From the NCBI GenBank assembly GCA_020053015.1, contig JAGVNY010000036.1, forward strand, positions 1 to 44,400: DNA of 44,400 nucleotides, given 5' to 3'. This DNA comes from Candidatus Zixiibacteriota bacterium. GTDB taxonomy: Bacteria > Zixibacteria > MSB-5A5 > JAABVY01 > JAHJOQ01. How positions within the stretch are numbered: the stretch's first letter is position 1; the number at the start of each line of letters is the position of its first letter. Below are positions 1,973 to 41,976 of this stretch, piece by piece. Under the pieces are notes generated by a model that was not told the DNA's origin, made no database searches, and saw nothing but the letters and a program-made list of their open reading frames with translations. Position numbers and translations under genes: made by a program.

Positions 1973-2773
1973 ATGAGACTATTGTCGCTTGACAGAAGAA
2001 TCATCTACATCTTAGTGCTGTTGGCGGTGGGAGTGCCGCTGCTGTTCAGAGTCCCATTGCCGGTGAAAGTGGGTGTGGAAACCAGGAAAGTGCACAGCGC
2101 AATCGACAACATTCCGCATGGAAGCTATGTGATGCTCTCCTTCGATATTGAGGCTTCGTCGTTGCCGGAAGTCAAACCGCTGGCTGAGGCGACCGTTCGG
2201 CATTGCTTCCAGAGAGATTTGCGCATCATAGGGTTAGCTCTATTCTCAGAGGGAGCTGCGATCGGTTACAATCTGTTGGTGCAGGTCGCGGACGAAATGG
2301 GCAAGGTGTACGGCTCGGACTACATCTACCTCGGCTTTCGGCCGCAGTATGTGTCTGCAATACTGGGTATGGGGGAGAGCATTGAGGATGTGTTCCCGTT
2401 GGACTATCTGAACAACGATTGGCGCGAATACCCTGGATATGCAAGTCTTGGCAACTACGACGATGTAGCTCTGGTGATCTCCATTGCTGATGGTTCCCTA
2501 CCGACATACTGGGTCGAGTACGCCGGAAGCCGGTACAATCAGAAGATTGCTGCTTGTTTGACGGCGGCCATGACGACCTCTTACTATCCATACACGGTCT
2601 CCGGTCAGCTTGTCGGCATGGTGAGTGGATTGAAAGGAGCGGCCGAGTATGAAACGATGCTCGGATACAGCGGCGGAGGACATCGCGGAATGCTCTCGCA
2701 ATCCTCAGGGCATGCTCTGATTATCCTTCTTGTAATCGTCGCTAACGTAGCGGAGTTGAGAAAGCGCAAATGA
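1973..2773 (+). CDS. Hypothetical protein with N- and C-terminal TM segments
   Basis: 266-aa ORF, 4-nt overlap with next ORF; conserved operon-like packing. Confidence 0.75.
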   Translation: MRLLSLDRRIIYILVLLAVGVPLLFRVPLPVKVGVETRKVHSAIDNIPHGSYVMLSFDIEASSLPEVKPLAEATVRHCFQRDLRIIGLALFSEGAAIGYNLLVQVADEMGKVYGSDYIYLGFRPQYVSAILGMGESIEDVFPLDYLNNDWREYPGYASLGNYDDVALVISIADGSLPTYWVEYAGSRYNQKIAACLTAAMTTSYYPYTVSGQLVGMVSGLKGAAEYETMLGYSGGGHRGMLSQSSGHALIILLVIVANVAELRKRK

Positions 2774-3369
2774 CGGACCTTGCCACCATCGTTGCACTCG
2801 CTCTGACGCTTTGCATTCTGTCATTCTTGTATCGCGAGAATCCATTTTACCGGTTCGCGGAATATTTGTTGGTCGGTGTATCAGTTGGCTACTCAACGGT
2901 TGTTATTTGCCGAAACTCTATCTATCCCCTCGTCATTGAGAGGATAAGCTCTTCGGGTGACATTCTTGTTCTAATACCTGCCGCGTTGGGACTTCTCATG
3001 TTTGCGCGTCTCAAGAGGAGCTGGTCGGGTCTTTCCCGGCTTCCCCTTGCGCTGATGATAGGGTTCGGAGCAGGAGTTTCGATCCCCGCAATGCTCCAAG
3101 CGCGAGTACTGAAGCAAGTGTCATCATCAATGCAATCGCTGGCTACACTCGACGGGATCGTTATAGTTGTTGGCGTCATAAGTACTATGTCTTATTTCTA
3201 TTTCTCCCGGAAGCAGGAGGGACTCAACGGTCGGCTGGCCAAGCTGGGTACTTACTTCCTGATGGTCTTCTTCGGAGCGACTTTTGGATTCACTGTAATG
3301 TCTCGAATATCGTTGCTGATCGGAAGGCTGGAGTTCATATTGCGGGACGCGTTCGGTCTTGTTTCATAA
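2770..3369 (+). CDS. Hypothetical multi-pass membrane protein
   Basis: 199-aa ORF, strongly hydrophobic, overlaps the preceding stop. Confidence 0.75.
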   Translation: MTDLATIVALALTLCILSFLYRENPFYRFAEYLLVGVSVGYSTVVICRNSIYPLVIERISSSGDILVLIPAALGLLMFARLKRSWSGLSRLPLALMIGFGAGVSIPAMLQARVLKQVSSSMQSLATLDGIVIVVGVISTMSYFYFSRKQEGLNGRLAKLGTYFLMVFFGATFGFTVMSRISLLIGRLEFILRDAFGLVS

Positions 3370-30234: not shown

Positions 30235-30259
30235 CCGATAGGAAAGGGCAGATGATAGG

Positions 30260-31651
30260 ATGTCACTGTTTCAGGGACTCGAAATTGGCAAGAAGGCGCT
30301 GATAGCCCATCAGCTGTCCCTCAATACAACCGGCCACAACATCGCAAACGTCGACACACCGGGCTTCACCCGCCAGAGGGTGCAGACGGCACCGTCATAT
30401 CCAATGGATACGATCGAGGGGCCGATCGGCACCGGGATTGACGTGGTCAAGATCGAGCACATTCGAGATTTGTTCCTCACGGATCGTTGGCGGTCTGAGA
30501 ATCAGAACCTCGGACGATGGCAGGCGAAATCACAGACGCTCGAGCAAATAGAGGGTTTTCTCAATGAGCCTCAGGACTCGAGCCTCGGGGCTATTCTTAA
30601 CGAATTCTGGTCGGCGTGGCAAGACCTTGCGGACAACCCGGAGGCGCCGGAGACCCGTCGTTCGGTGGTTCAGCAGGCACACCTCGTAGAGAACGCATTT
30701 CACCAGATACACAGTCAACTGACGCAATTGCAGCAGTCGATAGACAGTGATATTCAGAGCAGAGTAAGCGAGATCAACAATCTCGGTAAGCAAATCGCCG
30801 ATCTTAATCGTCAGATATCCAATGTTGAGCTGGGCGGAGAAATGGCCAACGACTTGCGAGACAAAAGGGATCTGCTCATAGATGAGCTCTCTAAGTTTGT
30901 CAATGTCAGAAGCCGGGTTGATGGCTCGGGTCAGGCGATTGTGCAGATCGGAGCGATGGGATTTGTCGACGGATCGAGCTCCTGGGAACTGGAGCCATCG
31001 ACATTTGCGGAAGGCAGCACGACGAAAACTTCGATCGTCTGGAAGAACACTTCGTTTGAGCTTGACTTCTTCAACGGCGAAATGAAAGGATTGATTGAAC
31101 TCAGGGATGAGATCGTCCCGAACTACATTTCGAAACTCGATACGCTTGCGGCCACAATCGTAGAAAAGGTGAATGAAACGCACCGCGCGGGGTATGGAAG
31201 CGATGGTTCGACGGGACTGAATTTCTTCGATCCGTTTCTGACTACCGCAGAGCAAATAACCCTGAACATCGAGCTCGAGAACGATCCGCGGAAACTTGCA
31301 GCTTCGCAGAGCGGAGAAACAGGCGACAGCTCTAATGCGCTCGCTATTGCAAATGTCCTCAAAGTTGACCGCATAATGGACAACAACAGCGCAACCATTG
31401 AGGAGTACTACAATTCCATGATCGGCCTCATCGGGATAGAAGTGCGAGAAGCAAGCGATCAGACCGAGAACTACGAGCTTTTGGTACGGCAGCTTGAAAA
31501 CTCGCGTCAATCGGTTCAGGGAGTGTCTCTGGACGAAGAGATGACGAACATGATCAAGTTCCAGCATGCGTACGAGGCTGCCGCGCGAGTGATAACGTAC
31601 TTGGATTCTGCGCTCAGCACCGTCATAAACGGCATGGGTGTGACAAGATAA
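30260..31651 (+). CDS. flgK: Flagellar hook-associated protein 1 FlgK
   Basis: [42 protein letters not shown]-terminal [40 protein letters not shown]. Confidence 0.96.
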
Positions 31652-31674: not shown

Positions 31675-31998
31675 GTGCTGATTCTTACAAGGAAGTTAGG
31701 CGAAAGCATCACCATCGGTGACAACATCAAAGTCACCGTGCTTGGTATCTATGGCCGGCAAGTGCGATTGGGCATCGAAGCTCCGCTCAAGGTCGTAGTG
31801 CATCGCGAAGAGATCTACGTCAAGATTCAAAATGAGAACCGTAAGGCTTCCGGCACGGCAAACGAAGACCTCGGCAACGTGGTTCGCATGCTTCGAAGCA
31901 AATTCAAGGGCGAGATAAAGCAGAGCGACGGGAAGTCTGACATCAAGTACAAACAGGAAGGATCTTCGAACAGGGACGACAAGCGTCCGGCCGAGTGA
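31675..31998 (+). CDS. csrA: Carbon storage regulator CsrA with long C-terminal extension
   Basis: [51 protein letters not shown] is canonical CsrA; 107 aa rather than ~60-75. Confidence 0.97.
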
Positions 31999-32021: not shown

Positions 32022-33971
32022 ATGAGAGTTACTAATCAAATGATCACCAGTTTGGTGATCAACAATCTCTCTCGGAACATTGACAGCTTTATGAAGCTGG
32101 AAAATATGATGTCTACCGGCAGGAGAATAAACAAGCCGTCCGACGATCCAATCGGCAGCATCCGCGATCTGGGATATCGTTCCGTCCTTGCGCAGTACGA
32201 GCAGTACGACACGAATATCTCGCACGCGGAGACCTGGCTGTCGAGTGTGGACTTGGCGCTGTCAACGATGAACGATCTCCTGATTGACGCAAAAGACGTA
32301 GCGGTTATGCTCGCTAACGACACTTACGACGAGACCGCTCGACAGTCGGCCGCGAACGAGGTGGAATCGATTTTCGAGCAGATTCTTCAGGCAGGCAATT
32401 CCAAGCTCGGAAACAGATATCTCTTCAGCGGGCAGAGGACTCTGGAAAAAGCGTTCCGAGCCACGAGTACCGGTGTCATCTACGAGGGAGATGACGGCGA
32501 CCTGACTGTGGAGATCGAGGCCAGCACGAGAATGGCAATCAACATAGTAGGTTCCGATATGCTTACGAAGCCATTCACGCTGCTCGGCGACGAGGCTGAT
32601 CTTGCAGTTGGAGTGGATGGCAGCACTGCGCTCACCGATTTGAATGACGGCAACGGAGTCGACCTGACTCCGGGCATCTTTAGAGTTACTGATGCCAACC
32701 TTGGAATCTCAATTGCTGTAGATTTGTCCGCGGCAACGGACCTCAACTCGGTCATCTCGGCCATTAACACACAGCTTCAGGCCCCTTTGCCTCCGAACAA
32801 CATAACCAACCTGACGGCTTCGCTCGGAGACGAGGGCAACAACTTGAAGCTGGTAGCAATTGACAGATCTGACGTGAGTTTGGTGACGCCGCTTCGCAAT
32901 CTCAATCAAGGCGCAGGAATAGACCGGACGAACCCATCGTTTATAATTCACAATGCCGACCATTCGATCGAGGTGACGGTGGACATCGCTTCCGCAACCA
33001 CTCTCGGGGATGTCGTGACTGCTATAAACTCGGTGCTGAGTGGACATCCTGACCCAACCGTACAGAATGTGGTTGCGTCGCTGAATGCTGCCGGCACAGG
33101 CTTGATGCTCCAGGACAACAACGGAGTCCCAATCGGTCTCACCGTTTCAGATACTGATTTGGACGCAGGACCGGCTCGGGATCTGGGGATCATCGGAAGC
33201 ATCAATCCACAGCTTGTTGGCACAGATCTAAACCCACGACCAGAATTCGTTATCGAAGAGAGTGCGAGCGGCGAGACCACCGCCGCTGATCTCGGTATCA
33301 CCGGCACAATGAACTACAATCTTGTGGGGGAGGATGTTGATCCTCGCCTGGTGGCTTCTACTCCCGTCTCTCTGCTTAACAACGGAGTTGGAATCGCGCT
33401 CGACAGGATTCGCATCTCTCAGGGAGGCACGACCGTGACACTTGATCTCAACGCATCAGGGATTACGACGGTTCAGGATTTGGTCGACCTTCTGAATTCA
33501 ACAGGTCTGTCCATACGGGCGGCCATCAACAGTGTTGGAAAAGGCATTTCCATTGAAAATCTCGACCCAACCCAAACCTTGATTATCAAAGATATCGACG
33601 AGACCAAACCGGCTGCGGCGTTAGGAATCGAGGGATCGCCGGACGTCATGGGAAATCTGCTCGTCCTCATAGAAGCGCTGAGAGAGAATAATCGTGAAGT
33701 CGTGAACTCGGTAATAGACGGGCTGGATGACAGCCTTGACGAAATCCTTAACCAAAGAGCTACAGCGGGCGCCAAGAGCATTAGACTTGAGACAACCCAA
33801 TTGCGGCTGACTGAGTACAGCCTGAGTTTCACTAAGCTTCTGTCGGAGGTCGAGGATGCGGACCTGACTAAGCTTGTAGCGGAACTCGCTCAGAAAGAAA
33901 ACACGTACAAAGCAGCTTTGCAGTCTGCCGCGAAGATTATCCAACCAACACTGCTCGACTTTATCGGATAG
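32022..33971 (+). CDS. flgL: Flagellar hook-associated protein 3 FlgL, enlarged with Flagellin_IN-type repeats
   Basis: N-terminal MRVTNQMITSLVINNLSRNIDSFMKLENMMSTGRRINKPSDDPIG and C-terminal flagellin-like helix; ~350-aa middle region of IN-motif repeats. Confidence 0.92.
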   Translation: MRVTNQMITSLVINNLSRNIDSFMKLENMMSTGRRINKPSDDPIGSIRDLGYRSVLAQYEQYDTNISHAETWLSSVDLALSTMNDLLIDAKDVAVMLANDTYDETARQSAANEVESIFEQILQAGNSKLGNRYLFSGQRTLEKAFRATSTGVIYEGDDGDLTVEIEASTRMAINIVGSDMLTKPFTLLGDEADLAVGVDGSTALTDLNDGNGVDLTPGIFRVTDANLGISIAVDLSAATDLNSVISAINTQLQAPLPPNNITNLTASLGDEGNNLKLVAIDRSDVSLVTPLRNLNQGAGIDRTNPSFIIHNADHSIEVTVDIASATTLGDVVTAINSVLSGHPDPTVQNVVASLNAAGTGLMLQDNNGVPIGLTVSDTDLDAGPARDLGIIGSINPQLVGTDLNPRPEFVIEESASGETTAADLGITGTMNYNLVGEDVDPRLVASTPVSLLNNGVGIALDRIRISQGGTTVTLDLNASGITTVQDLVDLLNSTGLSIRAAINSVGKGISIENLDPTQTLIIKDIDETKPAAALGIEGSPDVMGNLLVLIEALRENNREVVNSVIDGLDDSLDEILNQRATAGAKSIRLETTQLRLTEYSLSFTKLLSEVEDADLTKLVAELAQKENTYKAALQSAAKIIQPTLLDFIG

Positions 33972-33979
33972 GGCATGGT

Positions 33980-34462
33980 ATGAAGATTGTCACGTTGCGT
34001 TTCGGAGAGCTTGAGATACCGGATGAGAAGATCATCCATTTCCCGAAAGGGCTGCTGGGATTCGAGCAGTTCAAGAAGTTTGTCATACTTCAACGCCAGG
34101 ACTCAGAGCCTTTCAAGTGGCTTCAGTGCCTCGATGATTCCAATCTCGCATTTGTCATTACTAATCCGGGGTACTTCTTCCCGAACTACAAGATCGAACT
34201 CCATATAAAGGAGTTGGAAGACATCGAAGTCACCGATGGATCGGGCGTGGAAACATACGTTATTGTGACGATCCCGAAGGACATCTCCCAGATGTCCGCG
34301 AATCTCCAGGGCCCGATCGTGATCAACACTGACACGGGCCTGGGAAAGCAGATCGTGCTCGTCAACGGTCCCTACACGATCCGACACTACATAATCGAAG
34401 AGCTTGAAAAGAGACAAGCTCGGGCAAAAAGCAAGGAACCTCTCGCTCTACAGATAGGATGA
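33980..34462 (+). CDS. fliW: Flagellar assembly factor FliW
   Basis: FPKGLLGFEQFKKFVILQRQDSEPFKWLQCLDDSNLAFVITNPGYFFPNY...VIVTIPKDISQMSANLQGPIVINTDTGLGKQIVL. Confidence 0.96.
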   Translation: MKIVTLRFGELEIPDEKIIHFPKGLLGFEQFKKFVILQRQDSEPFKWLQCLDDSNLAFVITNPGYFFPNYKIELHIKELEDIEVTDGSGVETYVIVTIPKDISQMSANLQGPIVINTDTGLGKQIVLVNGPYTIRHYIIEELEKRQARAKSKEPLALQIG

Positions 34463-34681
34463 ATATCTCGATTGCACATAGGATCGCACATGTCGAATGC
34501 GGCATGAGAGCAAGCGCCTCGGAGAACGGACGAAGAGATGGAGGCGAGGGGGAGAGCAGAAGATGAGGTCGCTAAGGCATGGACGGATGCCTTTCCGTCG
34601 ATTACTGCTTAGGATGCAGCAGTGTGAACTAATCTCCAGCGAATGGAACGTTGGAGACAATATAGGAAGAAGGCGAGTCTC
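34463..34681 (+). promoter_or_regulatory. Putative CsrA-binding leader RNA: GGA-rich hairpin array between fliW and the TPR-glycosyltransferase gene
   Basis: 11 GGA triplets in 219 nt. Hairpins with GGA in the loop: CGCCTC(34515-34520)/GAGGCG(34541-34546); AAGGCAT-GGACGG-ATGCCTT (34574-34593); ACTGCT-TAGGATGC-AGCAGT (34604-34623); TCTCCAGCG-AATGGAA-CGTTGGAGA (34633-34657, one G-U). Confidence 0.45.
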
Positions 34682-37600
34682 ATGGACTTTCAGAGAACTT
34701 CAGAGTTAAGGGCAAGGATTTCTTCATCACCTGACGACCACAAGAGTTACCTCGAGCTTGCTGACATCTATATCAAGGCTGGCCAACACACTGAGGCATA
34801 CGAGCACTTGTCTCTTCTTTCGGAGAGGTTGCCAGGCTCAGTCGATATTCTGGTCACTGCCGGAATGCTCGCAGCTAAGCTGGAGCGCAAGCTGGATGCC
34901 CTTAAGTGTTTCGAGAAGGCAGCAGCTATCTCACCGGAAGACAAGAACGTGCAGCACAATCTGGGCATCATCAATGCAGCGTTGGAGCGTGTATCGGAGG
35001 CAGAGATAGCTTTCCGAAAGGTAACTGAGCTGGCCCCGGATGAGGCCGAAGGCTTCAACGATCTGGGTGTAGTGTTGGCACACATGGGCAAACCGGAGGA
35101 AGCAAGAGCTGCATTTGAGGCTGCAATCGATAAGAATGCCTTCTTTGAGAGAGCCGTATCAAATTACGCCGAACTGTGTATTTCAGAGAAGCGCTATGAT
35201 GACGGCCTGCGAGCTGTAGCCAGATTCCTTTCGCTGGTCCCAGAAAGCGAAAGCATGCTCCAGCTTCGTGAAGCGCTGAAAAAGGCAGCACGTCCATCGG
35301 GCGAGCAATTCGCTTCATCAAACTTCGTCCCCAAAGGCCTTAGAATAGCATTCTTTGCAACGCAGGACACCTTCGCTCAAGGGATTCTCAGTCGGCTCGC
35401 GGCTCATAATGAGATCAAGCGCTTCGCGGGCAACACGACGCAACAACTCTCTGAACTTCTGGATTGGGCGGACCTCGCCTGGTTCGAATGGTGCGATCAG
35501 CTGCTGATTGAAGCAACCAAACTCCCCAAGAGATGCAAGATGATCTGCCGGCTCCACTCGTACGAGGCGTTCACTGACATGCCCGCCAAGGTCGACTGGA
35601 GCAAGGTAGACCGGTTAATACTCGTAAATCCGAATGTCGCCGCGATTCTCGACGAGTATCACAGTATTCCGGTAAAACGCGAGATCGTTTACAATGGCGT
35701 GGATCTCGACAAGTTTGCGTTTTGCGAGAAACAGACGCATGGCAAGAAGGTCTGCTCGCTCGGATTCATCAATTACAAAAAGAACCCCGGCCTGCTGCTC
35801 TATTGTTTCAAGGCATTGCACGAATACGATCCCGAGTTCACATTTTACATTGCCGGTCAGCACCAGGACCCCCGCATCAAGGCGTACTTCGATCATATGT
35901 TGAAACGCCTAAACATCCCCGTGACGTTCGACAATTGGGTGACCGATGTCCCCGGATATCTCAGTGACAAAGACTTCGTCATTTCCACGTCGCTGTTCGA
36001 GTCCTTTCACTATTCCATTGCGGAAGGGATGGCCTGCGGTGTCCTTCCCCTGGTCCACGCGTGGCCGGGATCGGAGAACATCTATCCATCTGAATATCTA
36101 TTCGATACACCGGCGGATTGCGTTCGGCTTGTCGGGCGTCTGATGAACTGCGACAGAAACGAATTGGCCCGGACTAATCGCGAGTACATCGCTGATCGCT
36201 TCTCTCTCGATCGTCAAATTCAGGGATTCTATTCAGTGATTGAATCACTCAGCATTCAGCCACGCACCGGTACCGGTCAAAGCAGCAGGACACAGCTGCT
36301 TCCCGAATTCGTTCACAAGAGCAGCTCGGACTTCGGCAAAGTGTCAATCGTCATTCCCACCTTTAACCGCGCTGAGTACCTGGAAGAAGCGATCGAATCG
36401 GCTCTTAAGCAAACCTATCGCAACTGCGAAGTGATAGTTTGCGATGACGCATCCACGGATGATACAAAGTACATTCTGGAGAGATACAAGGACCGGATTA
36501 CGGCGCTGTCGCATCATCGCAACCGAGGCGTGTCTGCTGCCTTGAATACGTGCATTCGCGCGTCAAGCGGGAATTATATCTCGTGGTTGTCGTCGGATGA
36601 TGTGTACATGCCTGGAAAAGTCGAGAAGCAGGCCAGTTACCTGCACGAACATCCGGACATCGCCATGGTCTATGCTGACTTCCTGTATATAGACAAGCAT
36701 TCCACCATGGGTCAGAGAGCAAACGTGTCACCGCTGACGGAAGGCGCGGAGGCACAAGAGCTCTTCGAGCGGAATCCTATCAATGGCTGTTCCGTGATGT
36801 TCCGTCGCGAATGTATCGAGAAGACGGGCTGGTTCGATGAAGGTCTTGGGGGAAGAGAGGGCTACACAGCAGACGGGGCAATGTGGCACAAGATGGCGCA
36901 TTTCTTCAAGCTGAAGTTCATGAATGAACCGTTGCTCTACTACAGGGTACATGACGGTAACGTCGCCAACAACACGGACACGCGTGCGCGGTGGGAGACG
37001 TACCGTGGATACATGCGCACCTGGTTCAGAGAATACGAAGCCAGCGCTCAAGAGAGGTCTCCACAGAAGCCCAATGCTTCTCGGACAGTCTCGAAACGAG
37101 GCTTGAATGTCGCCTGGATAGGTGTGATTGATCCGGGAGGCATATCGGCCATGTACAAGAAGGCTATTGAACGATATACGCCTCATCGAATGAGAATCCT
37201 CACTCACATGGAATCACGGGGATTCGACTCAGACATAGTCCTCACAAAGACCATGTGGGGCGGCAATCAGACAATGAAGGACTTCTCCGAGGTTCGTCGA
37301 GTCGCGGACGAGGCGGATGTTCTGCTCTTCTCTGCGGCTGTGGCGCCGGGTGCATCGAAGTTCGAGTCGCGTTTCTTCGATACCGATGACGTCCCCTTCG
37401 GGCAAATCAACTGGAAAGAATATACCTCGAAAAAGAAGTGTGCAGTGTTCTTCTACGGCTCCACTTCGATTCGACGCAATTATCAATGGTATTTGGATCT
37501 CTACAAGCAGAAGAGCTGGCCCATTATCACATGTCAGCCTGACATCTACAAGAACATGCCGGGCTCGAGTTACGTGCCGATCCTGATCGATCTACAGAAC

Positions 37601-38122
37601 GACCGCTATCATCGAAGTATCACGGGGGATGACCAGATTACGGTGGTCCATTCACCCACCGACAGACCGATCAAGAACACCGACGTATTTGAGTCAGTCG
37701 GACGGCGCATCACGCAGCGCCATCCTGAAGTCCAATTCCGCCTCTGCGAGAACATGGGCTTTGACGAAGCCATCAAGCTTAAGCGGACAGGCAACATCGC
37801 ATTCGATCAATTGCAGATCGGAGATGGATACTACTGCCTTTCGTCAGTTGAGAATTCAGCCCTCGGCATGGTGAACATCGTGCATCTCGACGATTTCGCA
37901 CGCAAGTGCATAGCCAACTCAATCGGAACCGACGAGTTGCCCTGGTACACACCCTCGACCGAAGAGGAAGTCTATCGAATCGTCAACGACTTGGTGTCTG
38001 ATCCGACTCGGCTCGAAAAAGAACAGAAGCGCACCTACGATTGGTTCAGGGAATGGTGGAATGAGAAGCATCTGATCTATTACTTGACCGATTTTCTCGA
38101 AAGGGTATATGAAGGCGCTTAG
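34682..38122 (+). CDS. TPR + GT4-type + GT2 + C-terminal GT-B-like multidomain glycosyltransferase
   Basis: ORF 34643..38122; ATG 34682 preceded by AGGAAGAAGG. TPRs, then [34 protein letters not shown]...[72 protein letters not shown]; third GT-like module. Confidence 0.88.
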   Translation: [1146 protein letters not shown]

Positions 38123-39890
38123 AATAGACCTTGGGTGCGGCGACAGTCCCATAGAGGGATTCGACGGACTCGATGTTCGTCCGCTACCGGGGGTGAAGTA
38201 TGTATCGGACGTACGCCAACTTCCATTCAAAGACGGCACCGTTGACGAACTCGCAGCACGCCACGTGATTGAGCATTTTACTCGTCAGGAAGCTGCCGAA
38301 GTGCTCCGGGAATGGAGACGAGTGCTCAAGCCCGGCGCACCGATTACTATCTGGTGCCCTAATCTGCTCTATATAGCTGAAGAGTATCTTAAGCTGCCGG
38401 ACATAGACAAGAATCCGGAACGCAAGTACCATCTTCTCGGATGGTTGTACGGAGAGCAGAACTACGACACTAACTTCCATTACTTCGCATATGATTGGTG
38501 GCTGCTCGGCGAGATGTTGATCAAGACAGGCTTTGCTAAAGTCGACTCTCTGCACGATCTCCATGCACAGAATCTGTGTGTCAGGGCATACAACGCAACC
38601 TCAGTGCAAAAGGCAGCGCCAACACTACGCCACACGTTGGCCCCAAAGGTATTGGTGGAATCGACGGCGCGAGTATTCGGCGATTCGCTCTTGTCGTACC
38701 CGCTGACAGCTATTTTCAAAGCAAAATACCCGGGTGCGGTCGTTTCGTATGCCGCCGGCAAGATTGAGCGTCCACTTTTTGATATCGCATCGACCATCGA
38801 CGAGGTTACAGAGAAAACCATCGACAACCCGGCTGTGCCGCTGAACGATGGCAAGTACGATATGATTCTCCGAGGCGCATTTGATGTTGACGAGAAGTGG
38901 AAACCCCGGCGATTCATCGACGGCTTCGACGGTCCCGACGGTTGGGACAAGGTAATCGACAGCGGCAATTTGCTAAGCTTCAACTACCCCGAGGGCGACC
39001 TCAAACGACTAAGAGACGTACTCGCTCGGTCTGAAGGTAAGAAGCGAGTGATGATGTTCATACCGACTCCACGCCCCAACATGTCGATTCCGTGGGAGAT
39101 ATCCGGCTGGGACATCGCAAATTACCAGCGCGTCGTGGAACTACTCAATAGCGAGCGACGCGACCTGGAGTTCTTCGCCTTTTATGGGCATCAAGAAACA
39201 TCGCATGATGCGATCAGAGGGCCGAATGTTACCCAGCTTGGACGTCTCGCCGCCTACGAAGAAGTACTCTGGTTCTCTCACATTGACATGCTCATTTCAA
39301 CTTCGACTTCCGTGTCAGGGATGATCGCCCCGCTTGTGGAGACGCCGCAGGTCGTGATTCATACGTGCGAGGAGGACAGTTCGCCGGTGTGGTCCGGGAT
39401 TCCCGACAAGTGCGTTCTGCCGCAGCTGCGGTTCCTCTACCTCTGTTCGCACAAGACGACAGGCGAAGTTATCAGCTTTGTGAAGCCTGAAGCTGGCGGG
39501 AGAATCTACGAGTGGGAATTCAATCACTTCTGGAAACGATCTGTGGTGAAGAGACGAATGCGAGAATCTCACGACGTTAAGCCGGAGGCGGTTGCAGAAG
39601 AGGTGCTGAGGAGGTTGAGCAACCCTGATTCGCCCGGAAAGGAATGGACTCTGCCGGAAGGCCGCTCCATATGCGAGTCATGCAGGCTGAAGCAAGAATT
39701 GGATATTTGTATTTATGATTTCAAACCCCGGCTTCGAAACGGGCTATGGATGGGAGAGAACCGAGGATCGGTGCGAACAGCCGCTCCGCAATCAACAGCG
39801 GAAATGATGAACAGGCTGTCGCAGGCGGACAAGCAACTAAACGTTACCGGGATTTCCGTAGAGGAGCCGCAAGGAGACCAATATGGCTGA
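38109..39890 (+). CDS. SAM-dependent methyltransferase fused to GT9-like glycosyltransferase region
   Basis: IDLGCGDSPIEGFDGLDVRPLPGVKYVSDVRQLPFKDGTVDELAARHVIEHF...EWRRVLKPGA; C-terminal VTQLGRLAAYEEVLWFSHIDMLISTSTSVSGMIAPLVETPQVVI resembles GT9/heptosyltransferase. Confidence 0.8.
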   Translation: MKALRIDLGCGDSPIEGFDGLDVRPLPGVKYVSDVRQLPFKDGTVDELAARHVIEHFTRQEAAEVLREWRRVLKPGAPITIWCPNLLYIAEEYLKLPDIDKNPERKYHLLGWLYGEQNYDTNFHYFAYDWWLLGEMLIKTGFAKVDSLHDLHAQNLCVRAYNATSVQKAAPTLRHTLAPKVLVESTARVFGDSLLSYPLTAIFKAKYPGAVVSYAAGKIERPLFDIASTIDEVTEKTIDNPAVPLNDGKYDMILRGAFDVDEKWKPRRFIDGFDGPDGWDKVIDSGNLLSFNYPEGDLKRLRDVLARSEGKKRVMMFIPTPRPNMSIPWEISGWDIANYQRVVELLNSERRDLEFFAFYGHQETSHDAIRGPNVTQLGRLAAYEEVLWFSHIDMLISTSTSVSGMIAPLVETPQVVIHTCEEDSSPVWSGIPDKCVLPQLRFLYLCSHKTTGEVISFVKPEAGGRIYEWEFNHFWKRSVVKRRMRESHDVKPEAVAEEVLRRLSNPDSPGKEWTLPEGRSICESCRLKQELDICIYDFKPRLRNGLWMGENRGSVRTAAPQSTAEMMNRLSQADKQLNVTGISVEEPQGDQYG

Positions 39891-40146
39891 GACGCTCGGC
39901 AGTCTGATGGACAAATTGAGCATTGCAAACATCAGGCTGTGGCATTTGGAGGACACCAGACGCGACACGTCACTGCCGGACAGGGAGAGACTTTCGGCTG
40001 CGGACAAGGTCGCAGTTGTCAATCGCCAGCGAAACGATCTCATTGACGAGATTGATTGCTTCCTCAGCGATGCCATCAACGGCAGAGCGAAGCTTACCGA
40101 TCCCAAAGTCAAGATCTATCGCGACGTTGAGAAGGTCGAGGTTTGA
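39883..40146 (+). CDS. Small DUF4254-like protein
   Basis: LSIANIRLWHLEDTRRDTSLPDRERLSAADKVAVVNRQRNDLIDEIDCFL; overlaps the preceding CDS by 8 nt. Confidence 0.65.
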   Translation: MAETLGSLMDKLSIANIRLWHLEDTRRDTSLPDRERLSAADKVAVVNRQRNDLIDEIDCFLSDAINGRAKLTDPKVKIYRDVEKVEV

Positions 40147-40147
40147 T

Positions 40148-40951
40148 ATGAAAATTGTTGGCATGGCTCAAGTCCATAACGAGGTCGAAACGGGACATCT
40201 CGATCGGTGCATGAAGCACTACTCGAGAGTGTGTGATGAGCTCGTCGTGCTCGACGATGCGTCAACGGACGGTTCGCTGGACATGATTCGTCAGTACACG
40301 AAGAATGTCATTGTCAATGAGAACAACAACTGGGACCGTGGACTCGAGACCAAGAACAAAGCAATACTCCTTGAGAACACCCTCCAGTTGAATCCGGACT
40401 GGATCGTGTCGTTCGATGCTGACGAGGTATTCGAGCGCAGGCTTCTCGACAGGAGATTCCTCGAGAACATGCTCAAATGGGCCGACACGAAGAATGTGCT
40501 CTCTCTCTGCTTTAATTGGAATCATCTCTGGCTGTCAGAGTGCTGGTATCGTGTAGATTCGAGATTGTCTACAGTGAGTCCGCCGCGTATTTGGAAGAAC
40601 ACTGGAAACATGGTGATCGAGATTACTCCGGGTCTGCACAGACGACTGTGGCCTCGTCAGATGGACAATCCGGTTCGAATCAACCTCGCGTTGATCCACT
40701 ACAGCTCCTCGTCAGAAGAGAAGCTCATTCGAAAGATCAGCAATTACTTGCGGCTTGACCCCACAGGAAACTACCGAGCCGTCCTCGAAGGTGTTGAGCT
40801 CGCGGAGGTCAATCACGACTGGTTCGAGAATGAAACAAAACCGGAACGGCGCGACCCGCCAGAGCTTGCAGAGATACATGCTCGAATTATGATGCGCCTG
40901 CAGAGGACTCCCATTCACTCAAATGAAGGTGTGGTTGCAGGCGCTGTCTAA
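40148..40951 (+). CDS. Glycosyltransferase family 2 protein
   Basis: MKIVGMAQVHNEVETGHLDRCMKHYSRVCDELVVLDDASTDGSLDM...DWIVSFDADEVFERR. The track ORF 39923..40951 is over-extended; ATG 40148. Confidence 0.88.
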   Translation: MKIVGMAQVHNEVETGHLDRCMKHYSRVCDELVVLDDASTDGSLDMIRQYTKNVIVNENNNWDRGLETKNKAILLENTLQLNPDWIVSFDADEVFERRLLDRRFLENMLKWADTKNVLSLCFNWNHLWLSECWYRVDSRLSTVSPPRIWKNTGNMVIEITPGLHRRLWPRQMDNPVRINLALIHYSSSSEEKLIRKISNYLRLDPTGNYRAVLEGVELAEVNHDWFENETKPERRDPPELAEIHARIMMRLQRTPIHSNEGVVAGAV

Positions 40952-40998
40952 GGAGTAGACTTGAGTCGAAAGAAACGTGTGTTGAAGGGAGATATACT

Positions 40999-41976
40999 AT
41001 GTCAAAGATACTTGTAACTGGCTGCAAAGGAACACTGGGGCAGCCGCTTGTTGCGGAACTGCAGAATCGCGGCCACGAAGTGTGGTGCATGGACTTGCAG
41101 CACCAGGCCGATGAGAACTACTTCCGCGCGGACGTTGCAAACTACCGTCAGCTTGAACGAGTGTTCGACCAGAACTACGATTACGTCTACCATCTTGCGG
41201 CCGAGTTTGGACGCATCAACGGTGAGGAATACTACGATACCCTCTGGCAAACGAATGTGATCGGAACACGTAACATCCTCGAGTGGCAGCGCAAGAAAGG
41301 ATTTAGATTGATCTTCGCGTCGTCATCAGAAATCTATGGTGACAAACACGAAGAGATACTGCGCGAAGAGATTCCGCTACATCAATCGATTATTCAGCAC
41401 AATGACTACGCCACAACCAAGTGGGTGAACGAAATTCAGATCATGAATTTCGAGCGCAGGTATGGCGTGCCGATCGTAAGGCTTAGGTTTTTCAACGCAT
41501 ACGGCCCCGGCGAGTACTATCACCATTACCGTTCCGTGGTGTGTCTCTTCTGCTACCGTGCGCTATTGGGTATACCGTATCAGGTTTACCTGGGATACCA
41601 TCGGGTGTTCATGTACATCGATGATTTCATCCCGACACTGGCGAACGTCTGCGAGAATTTCAAGGCAGGCAACGTCTACAACATCGGCGGCAAGGAGTTC
41701 AGAAGCGTGAAGGATCTGTCTGATCTCGTGCTCAGATACACAGGCGCGTCCGAGAATCTCGTGACGTATCTTCCCGAAGACAAACACAACGTGATGAACA
41801 AGAAGCCAGATATTTCAAAGGCGAAGATGGACTTCAACCACGACCCTAATCAGCCGCTTGAAGTGGGCGTTCCCAGGACGATAGAGTGGATGAAGCAGGT
41901 TTATGGAGTCGGAGCTGTCCGTCCGGCTTACATGAGCCCATATCGAGTGCCCCAGACGCCAGTCGGCGTCAGGTAA
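40999..41976 (+). CDS. NAD-dependent epimerase/dehydratase (NDP-sugar)
   Basis: ILVTGCKGTLGQPLVAEL (Rossmann), SSEIYG, YATTKW (YxxxK), RFFNAYGPGEYYHHYRSVV. Confidence 0.93.
   Translation: MSKILVTGCKGTLGQPLVAELQNRGHEVWCMDLQHQADENYFRADVANYRQLERVFDQNYDYVYHLAAEFGRINGEEYYDTLWQTNVIGTRNILEWQRKKGFRLIFASSSEIYGDKHEEILREEIPLHQSIIQHNDYATTKWVNEIQIMNFERRYGVPIVRLRFFNAYGPGEYYHHYRSVVCLFCYRALLGIPYQVYLGYHRVFMYIDDFIPTLANVCENFKAGNVYNIGGKEFRSVKDLSDLVLRYTGASENLVTYLPEDKHNVMNKKPDISKAKMDFNHDPNQPLEVGVPRTIEWMKQVYGVGAVRPAYMSPYRVPQTPVGVR

Follow-up and report, generated by a model that had tools for sequence, protein, structure and literature searches.

A GGA-loop hairpin and a candidate CsrA-repressed leader between fliW and a glycosyltransferase gene in Zixibacteria

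The window, by which we mean the whole stretch of 44,400 nt analysed here, is one entire contig of a Candidatus Zixiibacteriota MAG. Its flagellar and glycan genes lie in the order flgN, flgK, csrA, flgL, fliW, a gap, a TPR+GT1+GT2 gene, a methyltransferase-domain gene, a GT2-like gene and a sugar epimerase gene. The genes that frame the gap, and the gap itself, are listed here.

31675-31998, forward strand: csrA, 107 aa, putative RNA-binding regulator (PF02599, 3e-24; NCBIfam CsrA equivalog)
32022-33971, forward strand: flgL, hook-filament junction protein, between csrA and fliW (TIGR02550, 7e-74)
33980-34462, forward strand: fliW, CsrA antagonist (PF02623, 2e-40; matches FliW of the solved FliW:CsrA complex 5dmb)
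34463-34681, forward strand: noncoding leader or intergenic gap of the glycosyltransferase gene, 219 nt (stops in all three frames)
34682-38122, forward strand: TPR+GT1+GT2 glycosyltransferase, 1146 aa, start MDFQ, the proposed target gene (Pfam; orthologues 3′ of fliW in relatives)
38109-41976, forward strand: methyltransferase-domain gene, GT2-like gene and sugar epimerase/dehydratase gene, a downstream glycan cluster (Pfam)

The csrA gene is the sole csrA match in the assembly, which is 88% complete. Alignment of its product with CsrA of E. coli, Pseudomonas and Geobacillus revealed that LILTR and VHREEIY are retained and that the RNA-binding segments of solved CsrA proteins are kept. This csrA, which lies in the same operon as fliW and the glycosyltransferase gene, is intact and predicted to be functional. 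Judging from its location, the TPR+GT1+GT2 enzyme probably acts in flagellar glycosylation. An upstream in-frame start of its gene at 34643 was considered and discarded: the alignment of orthologues begins with MDFQ at 34682, which is also the start that the Shine-Dalgarno (SD) sequence fits.

A sequence-only reading of this DNA had described the gap between fliW and the glycosyltransferase gene as an array of GGA hairpins resembling CsrB or RsmZ. The position of the gap was confirmed, as were its 11 GGA triplets and the further GGA in the SD region AUAGGAAGAAGG and just after the ATG. However, the expected count of 3.4 against which the 11 had been set holds for uniform composition only; the real composition predicts 7.0 (mononucleotide, P = 0.05) or 7.9 (dinucleotide shuffles, P = 0.08), and the GGA content of the gap is barely above composition. 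The placement of GGA in loops differed more clearly from chance, with three GGA-loop hairpins in the gap's own minimum free energy (MFE) structure versus 0.37 in shuffled gaps (P = 0.004). The genome background comprised 219 leaders, drawn from the window and about 240 kb of other contigs, and in it only the gap itself reached three such loops. Its overall fold energy was unremarkable (z = −1.5), and six A_GGA sites lie within 34463-34690. The hairpins and the SD sequence are located as follows.

34515-34546, forward strand: H1, 6-bp stem, 20-nt loop with two GGA triplets; probability 0.62-0.78, genome-specific and absent from relatives
34574-34599, forward strand: H2 region, in which H2 (34574-34593) competes with a fold at 34582-34599, as judged by ensemble probabilities
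34603-34624, forward strand: H3, 7-bp stem, loop UAGGAUGC; context-dependent, without A at −2 of GGA
34633-34657, forward strand: H4, 9-bp stem, loop AAUGGAA, proposed high-affinity CsrA site; probability about 1 in all contexts
34664-34673, forward strand: SD sequence AGGAAGAAGG in AUAGGAAGAAGG, proposed from its sequence as a second, lower-affinity CsrA contact

The sequences of H1 to H4 are present in the gap as they had been described, but their ensemble probabilities, together with that of the additional hairpin H0, reduce the array to one robust, two conditional and two poor hairpins. H0 had a probability of 0 and does not fold. H1 forms, although its 20-nt loop is large and it is without a counterpart in relatives. 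H2 (probability 0.13-0.40) loses to the alternative pairing GACGGA/UCCGUC (0.55-0.85), which buries a GGA in its stem. H3 formed with a probability of about 0.9 in the gap alone but of about 0 once the 150 nt to either side were included, and the CsrA core that had been assigned to its loop is missing, because UUAGGAUGC has U rather than A two bases 5′ of GGA and thus holds no A_GGA.

In contrast to these hairpins, H4, UCUCCAGCG-AAUGGAA-CGUUGGAGA, had a probability of about 1.0 in every context tested and a predicted energy of about −12.4 kcal. Among the 219 sampled leaders of this genome, no other GGA-loop hairpin within 100 nt of a start is as strong (shuffle P = 0.001), and the AUGGA of H4 fits the mAwGGAs consensus selected by C. 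jejuni CsrA (PMC6692469). The leader thus places A_GGA in a stable loop near the start and a second GGA overlapping the SD sequence at bridging distance; the spacing between the two GGA triplets is 20-21 nt (20 in the window genome). The H4-SD spacing of 20 nt falls inside the range of 10-63 nt over which bridging has been measured for E. coli CsrA (PMC7652899). The SD motif UAUAGGA is a non-ideal CsrA site because it has U, not A, two bases before GGA.

The order to which this genome belongs comprises eight genomes, and glycosyltransferase leaders were read from six of them (the window genome and G001 to G005). Gaps between fliW and the TPR or TPR-glycosyltransferase gene measured 117 nt in G003, 96 in G001, 68 in G002 and 89 in G005, and leader similarity among relatives was confined to the 3′ end, where the AUAGGAAGAAGG SD region is common to the window genome, G003 and G001. 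G003, which belongs to another genus, has a 9-bp hairpin at the H4 position, GUCGCUGAC-AUGGAACG-GUCGGUGAC (−12.5 kcal; ensemble probability 0.42), that outranks every other GGA-loop hairpin near a start in the 50 leaders sampled there (shuffle P = 0.003). Compared with H4, it keeps AUGGAACG and the AUAGGAAGAAGG SD region, about 20 nt downstream of the hairpin, while its stem is largely different. Counted outward from the loop, seven of the nine stem pairs have both bases changed yet remain paired, a pattern that stops short of formal covariation proof because the loops differ in size (7 and 8) and the register is ambiguous. An H4-like hairpin occurs in two of the six glycosyltransferase leaders of the order and is absent from those of G001, G002, G004 and G005, and counterparts of H1 to H3 were not found in any of the relatives, with their gaps of 68-117 nt. 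In G004, fliW and the glycosyltransferase gene are separated by an inserted gene of unknown family, about 250 aa long (MPVEMQTYKPITYKGHG...).

At the level of the phylum, fliW was present in 122 of the 134 Zixibacteria genomes searched, and about 110 fliW loci were read. The gene 3′ of fliW encodes a TPR protein or TPR-glycosyltransferase in nine of ten representatives; in G044, a radical SAM protein (positions 2134-3249 of locus L012) replaces the TPR-glycosyltransferase. We scored leaders with gaps of at least 55 nt for a GGA-loop hairpin located at −60 to −24 and reaching at least −4 kcal in stability. Such hairpins occurred in 16 of 64 post-fliW leaders versus 27 of 774 other leaders (P = 1.1e-8), a comparison in which the thresholds were chosen after examples had been seen, the genomes are related and not independent, and the background includes misassigned starts. 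Shuffles of the 64 leaders gave a mean of 3.1 and a maximum of 9 in 200, versus 16 observed. When all 64 loop trinucleotides were scanned, GGA ranked top (18/64 versus 35/774, P = 6e-9; next best 3e-4), and under a strict noncoding filter the enrichment was 4/20 versus 12/256 (P = 0.02). A strong hairpin is missing from roughly three in four of the 64 post-fliW leaders. When leaders were grouped by orthologue, upstream GGA hairpins were found in 66% of flagellin, 30% of window-type glycosyltransferase and 15% of csrA leaders, and in 0-12% of the others.

Other candidate signatures were set aside. Sequestration of the SD in a hairpin, as a general signature of the post-fliW gene, showed no enrichment over other leaders in a first metric (44% versus 33%) and a modest one in a later metric (22/64 versus 145/774), and is not part of the main evidence; a requirement for A_GGA in the loop was dropped since the phylum cases were too few for a test of their own. 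The SD motif AUAGGA, present in the window at 30240-30260 and 34662-34681, precedes several late flagellar genes in the phylum (flgK, 16/55; fliW, 16/96; fliD, 11/28; fliS, 8/29) and two post-fliW glycosyltransferase groups (22/40), and never precedes flagellin (0/44), csrA (0/46) or flgJ (0/43). Despite this strong enrichment, we did not take it as a CsrA motif because it has U at −2 against the A_GGA consensus.

The flagellin and csrA leaders of the same genomes provide a positive control, with CsrA-type hairpins that are clearer than those of the glycosyltransferase leaders. In the family of the window, flagellin leaders carry GUCGA-CARGGAHGN-UCGAC in three members, followed by AAGGA and the SD, and the G003 flagellin leader has the same hairpin type with a variant stem. 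Across the phylum, most of 44 flagellin leaders carry, about 21 nt upstream of the SD, a covarying stem capped by an AAGGAN hexaloop. In C. jejuni flaA, CsrA binds two ANGGA loops spaced by 21 nt, one of which covers the ribosome-binding site (PMC4894983), and in sequence the Zixibacteria flagellin leaders share this architecture as a two-site signature conserved across the phylum. In many csrA leaders the SD lies within an ACGGAG hexaloop whose stem varies (e.g. ACACC-ACGGAG-GGUGU), a probable autoregulatory CsrA site; this hexaloop was not clearly seen in the window's own csrA leader. The components expected of a FliW-CsrA switch, fliW, csrA and a flagellin leader with CsrA-type sites, are thus all found.

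We conclude, with a probability of roughly 0.7, that the gap serves the glycosyltransferase gene as its 5′ or intercistronic leader and acts as a CsrA-repressed translation switch. This alternative had already been raised by the sequence-only reading, and it gains support from the G003 hairpin, the phylum-wide enrichment of GGA loops, the intact csrA of the operon and the flagellin and csrA sites. The same reading had also allowed for an mRNA-borne sponge, in which the GGA loops of the leader would titrate CsrA and add an RNA layer to the FliW switch. The flaA mRNA of C. jejuni is a precedent (PMC4894983). The three GGA loops of the MFE structure and the six A_GGA sites would suit such a role, but H1 to H3 are missing in the shorter gaps of relatives, H0 is unformed, H2 mostly unformed and H3 context-dependent, and the glycosyltransferase mRNA probably does not reach the abundance of the flagellin mRNA, whose leader already bears conserved sites. 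We therefore regard a sponge as improbable. A discrete small RNA encoded between fliW and the glycosyltransferase gene would share with CsrB and RsmZ several hairpins with GGA in the loop, here in a noncoding stretch. It differs from them in that few of the loops are well formed and the repeated GGA hairpins were not found in relatives; the strongest hairpin is instead placed with reference to the SD, a position retained in G003. Searches of 33900-34900 for σ70-type promoters and intrinsic terminators gave no match, nor did a search for CsrB-type Rfam families at the gathering threshold and at E ≤ 10, and such an RNA is very improbable. Neither the CsrB/RsmZ-like array nor the sponge was thus borne out.

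An ordinary intercistronic hairpin, acting in RNA stability or processing and holding GGA in its loop by chance, is unlikely to a lesser degree. Hairpins of −4 kcal or better with any loop are common, occurring in 328 of 774 background leaders and 34 of 64 post-fliW leaders, but the enrichment is specific to GGA among the 64 trinucleotides, and between the window genome and G003 it is the loop sequence, not the stem, that is kept. The extra gene in G004 raises the question of whether the gap is decayed coding sequence, either a gene remnant or an extension of fliW. All three frames are interrupted, however, and on this ground a decayed csrA or other gene was rejected; by inspection, the gap is also unlike the G004 insert, and relatives resemble it only at the 3′ end. 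We give this explanation almost no weight.

For the CsrA-repressed leader, the observations comprise H4, its counterpart in a second genus, the GGA-specific enrichment across the phylum and the linkage of csrA and fliW; from them we infer CsrA binding, repression, relief by FliW and flagellin glycosylation by the enzyme. CsrA probably represses the glycosyltransferase gene because a stable H4 lies just upstream of the SD and related leaders elsewhere in the phylum point the same way. One RNA face of a CsrA dimer would contact the GGA of the H4 loop, the high-affinity site, while the other would bind the low-affinity SD GGA 20 nt downstream, and this bridging would block ribosomes. Export of flagellin would then free FliW, made from the gene just upstream of the gap, and free FliW would capture CsrA, releasing translation of flagellin and the glycosyltransferase together.

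Several known systems come close to this model. Like the C. jejuni flaA 5′UTR, the leader has GGA in the loop of an upstream hairpin, another about 21 nt further on at the ribosome-binding site and a third at codon 2, and both organisms have fliW and csrA with no CsrB-type RNA known (PMC4894983). Unlike flaA, the target here is a glycosyltransferase rather than flagellin, there are extra upstream hairpins, the second GGA lies outside a stable hairpin in the window, and the sites are candidates. The B. subtilis hag leader has two CsrA sites, one over the SD, and FliW as antagonist (PMC7652899), as proposed here, but its target is flagellin, and the flagellin leader of the window's family is its nearer equivalent. 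The E. coli glgC leader has the arrangement proposed here, a high-affinity hairpin just 5′ of an SD-overlapping site with bridging by one dimer (PMC7652899), but it has a metabolic target and is controlled through the CsrB/C RNAs rather than FliW.

The pseB and pseI genes function in flagellin sugar synthesis. Their transcripts are bound by CsrA in C. jejuni and are listed among flagella-formation genes (PMC4894983). CsrA-bound pseB is a precedent for a flagellar sugar gene as target, although pseB and pseI are sugar-synthesis genes and not a TPR-glycosyltransferase beside fliW. A more extended proposal, that FliW-CsrA controls flagellin and the presumed glycosyltransferase as one checkpoint and that the glycosyltransferase leader gained extra CsrA-buffering sites in this lineage, is speculative, and we hold it doubtful.

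A full-text literature search found no study of flagellar regulation in Zixibacteria. The flagellin and csrA leaders offer a clean positive control for CsrA target finding by comparison only. In sum, these results would add an uncultured phylum to the range of the FliW-CsrA regulon, which has been characterised in Bacillus and Campylobacter, and point to coordinated translation of flagellin and its presumed glycosylating enzyme.
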